64,000 nucleotides of DNA from Bacteroidales bacterium (GTDB taxonomy: Bacteria > Bacteroidota > Bacteroidia > Bacteroidales > P3): contig JAFSPS010000010.1 in NCBI GenBank assembly GCA_017451385.1, positions 37,217 through 101,216 of the forward strand, read 5' to 3'. Positions within the stretch are counted from its first letter, which is position 1. Each line of letters opens with the position of its first letter. The notes beneath the pieces were generated by a model that saw only the letters and a list, made by a program, of their open reading frames with translations, made no database searches and was not told the origin of the DNA. This document shows positions 33,946 to 37,593 of this stretch, piece by piece. The translations under genes were made by a program, and so were the position numbers.

Positions 33946-34815
33946 ATGGATAAAAGGCTTATTATCGTGGCGGGACCAACAGCTTCGGGCAAGACGCAAC
34001 ATGCTATAGAGCTGGCTCAAAAATATGACACCGAGATAGTGTCGTGCGACTCAAGACAAATATATTCCGAATTGTGTATAGGCGTAGCACGTCCAACGAT
34101 AGAGCAACTAAGCATAGTGAAACACCATTTCGTAGCGTGCCGTTCCGTTGAAATGCCATATAATGTCTTTGATTTCGAGCATGACGCAATAGAACTAATC
34201 GGGCATCTGTTTTGCCATCACGACACAGTGATTGCTGTCGGTGGCAGCGGTTTGTATATTGACGCTATAATCAATGGCATAGCAGTTATGCCAGACCCCA
34301 CGCCAGAACTGCGCAATCAACTGAAAGACCTGCTAAACCGTCAAGGCATTGCCGCCCTCCAGTCCATGTTGCAAGAAATCGACCCCGATTATTATGCCGT
34401 AGTTGACAAATCCAACCCCATACGCCTACAACGCGCCATAGAAGTCAGCATCACTGCTGGCCGCCCCTACAGCAAGCTTATCGCTGAACATACAATCAAA
34501 AAAAGGCCGTTTGATATAGAGGTAGTTGTTATGAACGTCGAACCGTCAGCACTGCGCGAACGCATCAACCATCGCGTTGACGAGATGATAGACAGCGGAC
34601 TGTATGAAGAGGTTTGCTCTTTGTGGCACCTGCAACACCTCAACACCCTCAATACAGTCGGCTACCGCGAGTTTTTCGCCTACGGCACTCCTCATCAAGC
34701 GGCATCAGCCATTTCATCAATCACCGAAGCCATAAAGCTCAACACATGGCACTACGCCAAAAAGCAGATGACATGGTGCAAAAAACGCTACTCACAACGA
34801 GAGAACCAATTCTGA
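33946..34815 (+). CDS. miaA: tRNA dimethylallyltransferase MiaA
   Basis: Transfers the dimethylallyl group to A37 of tRNAs that read U-starting codons. 289 aa, normal length. P-loop GPTASGKT (10-17), the DSRQIYSELCIG segment, VGGSGLYIDA, RLQRAIEVS and the TVGYREFF element are all present. It begins 19 bp after aroA and is the last gene of this operon. Confidence 0.94.
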   Translation: MDKRLIIVAGPTASGKTQHAIELAQKYDTEIVSCDSRQIYSELCIGVARPTIEQLSIVKHHFVACRSVEMPYNVFDFEHDAIELIGHLFCHHDTVIAVGGSGLYIDAIINGIAVMPDPTPELRNQLKDLLNRQGIAALQSMLQEIDPDYYAVVDKSNPIRLQRAIEVSITAGRPYSKLIAEHTIKKRPFDIEVVVMNVEPSALRERINHRVDEMIDSGLYEEVCSLWHLQHLNTLNTVGYREFFAYGTPHQAASAISSITEAIKLNTWHYAKKQMTWCKKRYSQRENQF

Positions 34816-34891: not shown

Positions 34892-35980
34892 ATGGAAAAC
34901 TTTGTTGTTTCGGCACGTAAATATCGTCCGAGTACTTTTGCCAGCGTCGTAGGGCAGGAACATATTACCACCACACTCAAAAACGCCATCAAGACAGGGC
35001 AGCTGGCTCAGGCTTTCCTGTTCTGCGGTCCACGTGGCGTGGGCAAGACAACATGTGCGCGCATCCTTGCCAAAACCATCAACTGCACAAATCCTACTGA
35101 TGACATGGAGGCCTGCAACGAATGTGAGTCCTGCCGTTCGTTCAATGATATGGCCTCAATGAATATTTTTGAACTTGATGCCGCATCAAACAATAGTGTT
35201 GATGATATCCGCGCCCTCGTAGAGCAGGTGCAGGTACCCCCTCAGACAGGAAAATATAAGATATACATCATCGATGAGGTTCACATGCTCTCCCAGAGTG
35301 CTTTCAATGCTTTCCTTAAGACCCTTGAAGAGCCGCCATCATACGCCAAATTTATCCTCGCCACAACAGAGCGTCACAAAGTAATCGCCACAATACTCTC
35401 TCGCTGCCAAGTCTATGAATTTAAGCGTATTCAAGATATTGATATCGTCAATTACTTGAAGCATATCGCAGAGCAGGAACACGTCACCTACGAGGATGCC
35501 GCATTGAAACTAATAGCACGCAAGGCGGAAGGCGGTATGCGCGATGCTCTTTCAACTTTCGACCAACTGGTGAGTTTCACGCGTGGCAACCTCACGGAAA
35601 AAGCTTGCGCCGAAAATCTCAGCATGATTGACACCGACTGCTACTTCGAACTGATGGATGCCTTCCAACGAAAGGATGTGGCGAAAGTGATGCTGAAGTA
35701 TGACGAGATGGCTAACCGAGGAATCAACAACCAGCAATTCCTTACTGGATTGACCGAATATATCAGGAACCTTATCGTTTCGCTCGACGCCTCAATGCAC
35801 CTGCTGCTGGGTGCCAACGAAGAAACGAACAAACGCTATATGACGCAAGCTCAGCAATGTGGACTTCCTACATTATTGTGGTACTTGAACTTAGCGAGTG
35901 ATGCTGATTTCAGATATAAGGAGGCTGGCAACAAACGCCTCTTTGTCGAAGTAACGCTGATGAAGCTTGCCGCTGGTTAG
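34892..35980 (+). CDS. dnaX: DNA polymerase III gamma/tau subunit, domains I-III (ends at an in-frame TAG)
   Basis: Clamp-loader ATPase. 362 aa: Walker A GPRGVGKTT (46-54), zinc module with C65, C75, C78, C81, Walker B DEVHML (128-133), SRC (170-172), then domain III ending NKRLFVEVTLMKLAAG. The next codon is TAG (35978-35980). After it the same frame is open without another stop to 36721 and encodes a Pro/Thr-rich linker and the tau-type C-terminal domain, so 34892-36721 looks like one dnaX gene of about 609 codons interrupted by a single UAG precisely at the domain III/tau boundary. A gamma-like product would be made by termination; a tau-like product would need readthrough, or a point mutation/sequencing error is present. 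Confidence 0.93.
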   Translation: MENFVVSARKYRPSTFASVVGQEHITTTLKNAIKTGQLAQAFLFCGPRGVGKTTCARILAKTINCTNPTDDMEACNECESCRSFNDMASMNIFELDAASNNSVDDIRALVEQVQVPPQTGKYKIYIIDEVHMLSQSAFNAFLKTLEEPPSYAKFILATTERHKVIATILSRCQVYEFKRIQDIDIVNYLKHIAEQEHVTYEDAALKLIARKAEGGMRDALSTFDQLVSFTRGNLTEKACAENLSMIDTDCYFELMDAFQRKDVAKVMLKYDEMANRGINNQQFLTGLTEYIRNLIVSLDASMHLLLGANEETNKRYMTQAQQCGLPTLLWYLNLASDADFRYKEAGNKRLFVEVTLMKLAAG

Positions 35981-36067
35981 ATAGCAAGATCGCCTCACGC
36001 GGAACATATAAGCACGTCTCGACCTCCATCTCCTTTAACGCCGGCGGATGCAGAGGGGAGGGTCACT

Positions 36068-36721
36068 ATGCCTGCTACGCCTCAGTCGCCACAGCCTCCA
36101 GCACAGACAAATCAGCCAACGGCAACTGTCCAAACCTCAAGCAAGCCTGCCGATAGCGCAACACCGCCAGTATCTGCTCCGCAGACACCCGCACCGCCAA
36201 CAGAACCACAACAGCCCAGCGTCACTGCCAAGCCAGCAGAATCCACCGTTGTGCGCCTCTCGGGAAGAGGCATAACATCGCAAATAGGCACTCTTTCTAT
36301 TAAAAACGCCATGCAGCGTGTTCGTCAGCAACAAGATAAAGTAAATGATAAAACCATGAAGGTTCCGCTGACGAAAGAGACCGTAGCGGACTACTGGACC
36401 GAGATGCTGAACAAAAAAGCTGGCGAGATGCCACGCATAGAGGAAGCCCTGCGCAACGCACGTGTCGAATTGCAGGACAACATCATTGTAATTCACACCG
36501 TGGATGCCTACCTCAACGTCGAGATGCGACCATTCACGGTTTCTATGATTGAATGGATGCGACACGAGAGCGGCATAGACAATCTGATGTTTCGACTTGA
36601 GCTTGAACAAATAGATGTAGAAGTACGCCCATACACCACAAACGAAAAATATGATGCCATGCTGAAAGTTAATCCGCACATGGAGGAATTAAAAAAAATA
36701 TTGAACGATATAGAGTTATAA
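36068..36721 (+). CDS. dnaX: Tau-specific C-terminal part of DnaX (downstream of the in-frame TAG)
   Basis: 217 codons from the first ATG after the TAG, same frame as dnaX. Residues 1-65 are a Pro/Gln/Thr-rich linker, then a charged helix (KNAMQRVRQQQDKVND) and the C-terminal domain that in Bacteroidota DnaX contacts the polymerase and helicase (TVADYWTEML, VHTVDAYLNVEMRPF near the middle, MLKVNPHMEELKKIL at the end). The frame is also open back to the TAG through 29 further codons. An AGGGGAGGG run with GGAGG six nt before this ATG resembles a Shine-Dalgarno site, so independent initiation is possible. Stop codon is 5 nt before dapF. Confidence 0.8.
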   Translation: MPATPQSPQPPAQTNQPTATVQTSSKPADSATPPVSAPQTPAPPTEPQQPSVTAKPAESTVVRLSGRGITSQIGTLSIKNAMQRVRQQQDKVNDKTMKVPLTKETVADYWTEMLNKKAGEMPRIEEALRNARVELQDNIIVIHTVDAYLNVEMRPFTVSMIEWMRHESGIDNLMFRLELEQIDVEVRPYTTNEKYDAMLKVNPHMEELKKILNDIEL

Positions 36722-36726
36722 GAAAA

Positions 36727-37593
36727 ATGCCAACAGAAATACCCTTCTATAAGTTTGACGGTGCTGGCAATGATTTCATTCTTATCGACGCACGCCATGA
36801 CGAGGTGCAATTAACAGAAAAACAGATTGCTCACCTCTGCCATCGTCGTTTTGGTATTGGTGCCGATGGACTCATGACGCTACACCATGCCGAAGGTGGT
36901 TTTGACTTCTTGATGCGTTACTACAATAGTGACGGACGCGAAGCAACCATGTGTGGTAATGGCGGAAGATGTATCACCGTATTTGCCAAAATGATGGGCG
37001 TAGAAAGTACGCCCCAAAACCATTTCCGTTTCATAGGGCCTGACGGCGAACACAGTTCTGACATCATCGTATGGAATGAAGACGCCGCAATGGGCATTGT
37101 AAGACTGGCTATGCGAGATATAGAAAGTAAAGATATAAGAAAAATATCATTACCATTTAATACAAAGGATGTTGCGTATGACATAAACGATGGCGACGAA
37201 CAGAAGATGTACGGATGGTATCTCAACACGGGCTCGCCACATTTGGTGATACGAGTTGCTAATCTTGACGATTATGATGTGGTGAGCGTGGGCCGCTGGC
37301 TACGCTACCGCACAGAACTTTTCCCCGAAGGCACCAATGTTGATTTCATAGAGGATAAGGAGGATGGCACACTTGCCGTTCGCACATACGAACGTGGTGT
37401 GGAAGACGAGACAATGGCATGTGGCACAGGCGTTACGGCATGCGCCATAGTCACAGGCAACGGCCGCATCAAAACACGAGGAGGCGATTTTCGTGTCACC
37501 TTTGACGTAACTGGCGATAACTATAGCAACGTGATGCTTACAGGTCCTGTGGCATTCAATTTTCACGGAATGATAAAGCTCGACATACAATAG
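36727..37593 (+). CDS. dapF: Diaminopimelate epimerase
   Basis: Converts LL- to meso-diaminopimelate for lysine and peptidoglycan. 288 aa. The two catalytic cysteines are C76 in MCGNGGRC and C232 in MACGTGVTA; the N-terminal KFDGAGNDFILID and GADGLM motifs are conserved. It follows the dnaX tail by 5 bp and is followed after 2 bp by the PagL-like gene, so these are one transcript. Ends in TAG, which shows that UAG is an ordinary stop here. Confidence 0.95.
   Translation: MPTEIPFYKFDGAGNDFILIDARHDEVQLTEKQIAHLCHRRFGIGADGLMTLHHAEGGFDFLMRYYNSDGREATMCGNGGRCITVFAKMMGVESTPQNHFRFIGPDGEHSSDIIVWNEDAAMGIVRLAMRDIESKDIRKISLPFNTKDVAYDINDGDEQKMYGWYLNTGSPHLVIRVANLDDYDVVSVGRWLRYRTELFPEGTNVDFIEDKEDGTLAVRTYERGVEDETMACGTGVTACAIVTGNGRIKTRGGDFRVTFDVTGDNYSNVMLTGPVAFNFHGMIKLDIQ

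Follow-up and report, generated by a model that had tools for sequence, protein, structure and literature searches.

A conserved RNA element behind an in-frame UAG in dnaX, and putative read-through from gamma to tau, in a genus of Bacteroidales

The window analysed here, a stretch of 64,000 nt from a Bacteroidales bacterium, contains a dnaX gene interrupted by a single in-frame UAG. Directly behind this stop lies a short element, shared by members of the same genus, which the first-pass annotation of the window had missed and which is our main finding. From the comparison of genomes, we consider it very probable that dnaX of this genus is subject to programmed UAG read-through, such that reading through the stop would produce tau and terminating at it would produce gamma.

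The dnaX frame and its tail

Apart from a TAG at positions 35,978–35,980, the putative recoding site, the frame of dnaX is open on the forward strand from 34,892 to a TAA at 36,719–36,721, in agreement with the single internal stop reported in the first-pass annotation. The gamma ORF (34,892–35,980) encodes domains I to III in 362 aa and ends in the UAG, and the tau tail (35,981–36,721, forward strand) continues in the same frame for 246 codons plus the TAA, starting with the RNA element and passing into a Pro-rich linker. The break falls right behind domain III, as had also been annotated, with the PF12169 match to this domain spanning residues 239–361 of the 362-aa gamma part. In the NCBIfam gamma/tau model NF011531 (614 positions), gamma residues 1–360 correspond to positions 1–360 and the tail to positions 398–610. 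A profile of the tail matched 68 of 69 uninterrupted DnaX proteins behind domain III (E < 1e-5; 75 sequences searched), while Pfam and, at the sequence level, the PDB gave no match to the tail. By homology, the tail corresponds to the C-terminal part of ordinary gamma/tau proteins; in E. coli, the C-terminal domains of tau are described as binding the helicase and the polymerase (PMC11470591, available text). The genome of the window contains dnaX once and the tail once.

The tail is under purifying selection. In all 14 close pairs compared, some of them with synonymous sites near saturation, dN/dS was 0.09–0.46 over its whole length and 0.04–0.43 over the last 120 codons. Database entries show the short product: the best 120 homologs listed are 362–414 aa long, several of them being named gamma/tau by a source, and the 90%-identity cluster of the window's own protein (two member sequences, 10 contigs) also has 362 aa. 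Additionally, the gamma part scores below the cut-off of NF011531 and above those of two other gamma/tau models. It appears that tau has been missed in the annotation of this genus.

The first-pass annotation had proposed comparing related genomes at the stop. Our genus set comprised 120 genomes, including that of the window, seven of them without a dnaX match, and yielded 115 loci, of which 113 were used after setting aside a fragment (L196) and L191. The latter (G004:C222), a second dnaX-like copy that genome G004 carries without interruption (58% identity), is probably assembly contamination. In all 113 loci a TAG at residue 362–413 ends the gamma frame, a frequency far above chance, so that the stop is conserved at one place across species, although kinship among the loci inflates raw counts. 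Over 1000 nt, L032–L034 are identical to L022, L137, and L151. The tail follows directly in frame 0 in 107 loci, and lies in the +1 frame in the other six. These 107 in-frame tails stay open for 166–259 codons, except for L131 and L144, where the contig ends before the stop of the tail is reached. Within the first 90 codons past the TAG, no stop occurs in frame 0 of the 107 loci, as against totals of 297 and 314 in the two alternative frames. Among the 105 tails whose end is visible, 60 terminate in TGA, 23 in TAA, and 22 in TAG, indicating that TAG is selected only at the internal site.

The RNA element behind the stop

The element starts at the stop and has the layout UAG-AUWGCNAGRN-hairpin-2 nt-RCAY. 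In the window, all on the forward strand, the 10-nt spacer ATAGCAAGAT (35,981–35,990; consensus AUWGCNAGRN) is followed by a small hairpin, CGC-CTCAC-GCG (35,991–36,001), which begins 10 nt 3′ of the UAG, and, 2 nt past it, by the motif ACAT (36,004–36,007; consensus RCAY). The A, U, G, C, A, and G of the spacer are invariant in the 107 in-frame loci, and so are the fixed positions of TAGAT[T/A]GCNAG as a whole; the base before the stop varies.

After merging elements identical over 39 nt, the 107 loci gave 102 distinct elements, in 100 of which a stem of 3 bp or more begins precisely 10 nt past the UAG; the two without it are L124 and L169. The same count at other offsets from 0 to 39 reached only 0–53 of 102, with the highest value at the neighbouring offset 11. 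The stems are of diverse types, including CGC/GCG, GCC/GGC, GUCC/GGGC, GUC/GAC, CGCU/AGCG, and GCCCC/GGGGC. When the 3′ parts were dealt out among the elements in 500 permutations, at most 80 of 102 paired, against 100 with their own partners, and swaps between differing 5′ arms paired in only 41–44% of cases. With a narrower stem rule, 87 of 102 elements paired with their own arm, as compared to a mean of 63.6 and a maximum of 74 in the permuted sets.

Of the 100 elements that have the stem, 98 carry RCAY exactly 2 nt past it, despite the varying length of the hairpin, and the motif occurs in one codon phase in 59 of them and in another in 39. Since this spacing is fixed across two codon phases and several hairpin lengths, it is the RNA, and not the peptide, that seems to be kept. 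Codon choice in the element departs likewise from that in the same genes: its Arg codon is AGR in 106 of 107 loci, whereas the same gamma ORFs use AGR for 6.7% of their 2,108 Arg codons; ATC is never used at its Ile codon (0 of 107 vs. 59% elsewhere), and GCA occupies its codon in 100 of 107 (vs. 15% elsewhere). The AGR bias, the fixed offset of the stem, and the occurrence of RCAY in two phases thus indicate that the element is conserved as RNA.

This conservation is strong, and the tests of folding energy and of simple covariation were negative. Folding energy was no lower than that of dinucleotide shuffles (mean z 0.03), and pair counting gave no covariation signal on alignment A2, a model-fitted sequence alignment to which 100 of the 107 loci were given and which has 104 rows, four of them spurious weak hits. 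The lack of signal on A2 is due to a 1-nt difference in register between the hairpins of type A and those of types B and C; per-element stem counts, swaps, and the RCAY distance were used instead, which are less strict than a phylogenetic test. Base-pair probabilities from −60 to +122 revealed no further helix common to the 61 type-A elements. A pseudoknot between the spacer and the 3′ motif (UGC with GCA), sought by eye, was rejected, since the pairing is impossible in species with AUA and ACAU. We propose that the element is probably a cis-acting 3′ stimulator of read-through.

A covariance model of the element matched once in each of 108 genomes out of the 119 from the genus. The 11 misses are the seven genomes without dnaX and four in which the element is divergent (L175 and three with a +1 tail). 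There was no match at E 0.001 in the other 70 genomes of the family; three weak matches in other genera (21–23 bits, E 0.01) were discarded for their positions outside dnaX. At the same threshold, two of 393 genomes from a sample of the order matched, both being genus members, as did one of 395 from a sample of the phylum, that of the window itself; in these two large scans few candidates are scored in each genome, and divergent copies may go unnoticed. The element had no match in Rfam up to E 1.

In the nearest genera, g11 and g4, dnaX is not interrupted: nine of 10 genomes have an open frame of 581–638 aa, the tenth gave only a partial match, and six loci were read. In g7 and g9, from the same family, all nine loci read have a run of nine or 10 adenines and the tail in the −1 frame. 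A survey of 80 named Bacteroidota loci retrieved 58 uninterrupted genes, 15 with an A-run, three with an in-frame TAG, two of other kinds, and two at a contig end, and all three with an in-frame TAG are loci from the genus. A contig end behind dnaX closes the frame artificially in L067; it reads like what is presumably a Nextera adapter. A tree of 107 genus rows (101 in-frame and six of the +1 type) and six outgroup rows, leaving out the near-copies L119, L133, and L157 as well as short rows, placed the genus on one side of a branch that separates it from g11 and g4 (SH-aLRT 98), and a single gain of the UAG element is therefore the simplest history.

Decoding of the UAG and alternative explanations

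Read-through of the UAG was one of several options in the first-pass annotation, and it now gains backing from the 107 tails in frame 0 and from the conserved 3′ element. A share of the ribosomes would terminate at the UAG through RF1 and release gamma (here 362 aa, domains I–III), and in the remaining ones the UAG would be read by a near-cognate tRNA, translation continuing in the same frame to produce tau. The element would sit at the mRNA entry of the ribosome when the UAG is in the A site, and could favour decoding over release. We infer from these comparisons the read-through itself, its level, the tRNA used, and the action of the element.

The genome contains prfA, coding for RF1, above its cut-off and with the GGQ and PAT motifs. 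Nine of the 41 non-overlapping window ORFs of at least 150 aa, dnaX included, end in TAG, and only 0–51 open codons follow the TAG in the other eight; these are mechanical ORFs and not curated genes. One gene given as ending in TAG in the first-pass annotation, dapF (36,727–37,593), does so. A change of the code turning UAG into a sense codon was consequently rejected, given prfA and the eight further window ORFs ending in TAG, and the earlier statement that UAG is not reassigned stands. No CUA anticodon occurs among the 46 tRNA matches of the own genome or the 45 of a relative rated 100% complete (G088), and UCA is likewise missing from both sets, each of which is incomplete (e.g., tRNA-Ile(GAU) is absent from both). 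With UAG terminating elsewhere, RF1 present, and no CUA anticodon found, competition of a near-cognate tRNA with RF1 would be the most economical explanation.

The first candidate for decoding the UAG, as far as we can infer, would be tRNA-Gln(CUG). In all four genus genomes examined, and also in g11 and g4, the anticodon stem of this tRNA is without its top pair, and the pair is present in tRNA-Gln of g10 (G172) and g7 (G141, UUG only). For tRNA-Trp, a missing pair at this place has been tied to stop codon read-through (PMC13092985, available text). This feature would be at most a pre-adaptation, since it is shared by g11 and g4, whose dnaX lacks the UAG. More generally, the top anticodon-stem pair is missing in the tRNA-Gln of the genus and of g11 (L224, L232, and L280–L295), and in g4 only in that with CUG.

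Directly upstream of dnaX in the window, at 33,946–34,815, lies miaA, coding for a tRNA A37 prenyltransferase (PF01715). Modification of A37 of the miaA type can influence stop codon read-through. Among approximately 30 genus loci with upstream DNA (up to 1,500 nt), miaA matched only at the window's own locus, so the miaA-dnaX neighbourhood is not conserved.

The six loci with the tail in the +1 frame (L149, L178, L181, L186, L187, and L190) have tails that are all matched by the tail profile and whose frame is open from 50–176 nt upstream of the stop. They all carry AGGCNTAGCTAG, followed by the same kind of hairpin and then by ACAY, and a hairpin-anchored comparison, done by eye, places GGC in the tail frame, or AGG in the zero frame, where the other loci have the UAG. 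The first-pass annotation had also considered a frameshift, which is not needed in the own genome, in spite of these six relatives with a +1 tail behind a version of the element. No A-run of at least eight occurs in the 45 nt before the stop in any of the 113 loci, nor is there an A_AAA_AAG-like site at the break; L114 alone has such an A-run behind the stop. The +1 tails would be reached by a shift into that frame at AGG-C, which the element would stimulate as well, although a shift at AGC-UAG may be the route instead. The element is therefore not tied to read-through alone, as six species have the tail in another frame. In the gamma tree the six loci need at least four changes, of which strongly supported branches force only one. 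We rather favour, on balance, a scenario in which a new element drives UAG read-through throughout the genus and was re-used in some of its species for a +1 shift at AGG-C where the UAG had stood.

Two other loci had a broken frame with the tail in +1. In L035, from a distant member of the Bacteroidales, dnaX closes at 383 with TAA, and there is no A-run but a GCT-AGG-C upstream, perhaps another +1 site. In L256 (G180, from g10), dnaX closes at 376, also with TAA and with no A-run near the stop; most of the listed relatives from g10 have an uninterrupted dnaX, and the break in L256 may be an error or another type of recoding.

The alternative to read-through that survives best, though we regard it as unlikely, is a split gene whose tail is reinitiated separately, at the AUU/AUA after the UAG or at a later start, and enters the complex as a separate subunit. 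The codon after the TAG is ATT in 62 and ATA in 45 of the 107 loci, both being rare start codons, and an ATG, GTG, or TTG occurs 11–111 codons past the TAG in every one of the 105 tails whose end is visible. GTG or TTG codons in the linkers may serve for a restart. The first-pass annotation had proposed the ATG at 36,068–36,070 of the window (forward strand), and the G-rich run it described before it, GGGGAGGG, is indeed in the sequence. However, this ATG is not conserved: relatives share no in-frame ATG position, their first in-frame ATGs being scattered 16–209 codons downstream, and in 46 of 105 tails the first one would leave 110 aa or less, which makes separate translation of the tail unlikely. 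Separate ORFs would not need a common frame, yet the tail is in frame 0 in 107 loci, and in the six +1 species AUW is matched in the alignment by an NTA codon, which is ATA in only one of them. A detached tail would, in addition, forfeit the covalent link of tau, and g11 and g4 have one fused DnaX protein.

Much less probable is a hop of the peptidyl-tRNA over the stop, as in the bypassing of T4 gene 60 or as a short stop hop. The commonest codon before the TAG is GGA (38 loci), which is also the codon before the stop in T4 gene 60, and in 43 of 107 loci a codon that agrees in its first two bases with the one before the TAG lies in frame no more than six codons away; such a landing codon is missing in the other 64, and the wide variation of the codon before the stop makes a hop unlikely. 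Equally improbable would be decoding by a dedicated suppressor or special-amino-acid tRNA, similar to those for Pyl or Sec. The conserved element directly behind the stop is reminiscent of the bacterial SECIS, a 3′ element located in the same way behind a stop codon, but the codon is UAG and not UGA, neither of the two incomplete tRNA sets has a CUA or UCA anticodon, further window ORFs end in TAG, and the element has no Rfam match. Finally, the sequence or mutation error considered in the first-pass annotation, or a decaying dnaX, has a negligible probability even if a single assembly, in 54 contigs, is the source of the window, because the TAG is conserved genus-wide in front of a tail under purifying selection, and the comparison of genomes shows that the UAG is real.

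Comparison with known recoding systems

Among bacterial housekeeping genes, dnaX is a classic example of recoding, which is known to occur by frameshifting in E. coli, by slippage in Thermus, and in two-ORF genes, according to the text available from PMC5009743 and PMC3711429. The same texts describe the E. coli case as a −1 programmed frameshift at A_AAA_AAG stimulated by an SD-like sequence and a stem-loop. The genus studied here resembles it in the gene involved, in the predicted production of gamma and tau from one mRNA, and in the 3′ hairpin. Conversely, recoding leads to gamma in E. coli and would lead to tau in the genus, which has neither a slippery run nor a change of frame and would decode a stop codon instead.

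Two-ORF dnaX genes with an A-run produce gamma from the zero frame and tau through recoding, probably by transcriptional slippage (Antonov et al., 2013, PMC3711429, available text), and the A9–A10 genes of g7 and g9 are of this type. Gamma from the zero frame and tau by recoding would also be the outcome of UAG read-through in the genus, although here there is no A-run before the stop, the tail is in frame 0 in 107 loci, and a dedicated RNA element follows.

Murine leukemia virus (MuLV) is a viral case of UAG read-through with a 3′ pseudoknot (PMC5009743, available text). It shares with dnaX of the genus the in-frame UAG, a 3′ RNA stimulator (putative here), and the fusion of a C-terminal domain; it differs in that ours is a bacterial housekeeping gene with a short hairpin, a conserved spacer, and a 3′ motif, and with no pseudoknot shown. 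The spacer between the UAG and the 3′ structure of MuLV is of similar size. The +1 frameshift site of the Ty1 type is CUU-AGG-C, and the six +1 species have AGG-C where the others have the UAG; unlike in Ty1, the codon before AGG is GUU, GUC, or CAU, with poor re-pairing.

We found no description of read-through in dnaX in the literature searched, most subscription papers lying outside it, and dnaX read-through looks like a third route beside frameshifting and slippage. If it is confirmed, one stimulator would serve two kinds of recoding within one genus, a natural case of the interchange of recoding modes and a natural experiment for its study, and a dedicated bacterial read-through element would become available for research. 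Dependence of the replicase on read-through would link DNA replication to the status of release factor and tRNA. Read-through would then stand as a further route to gamma and tau, beside frameshifting, transcriptional slippage, and proteolysis.
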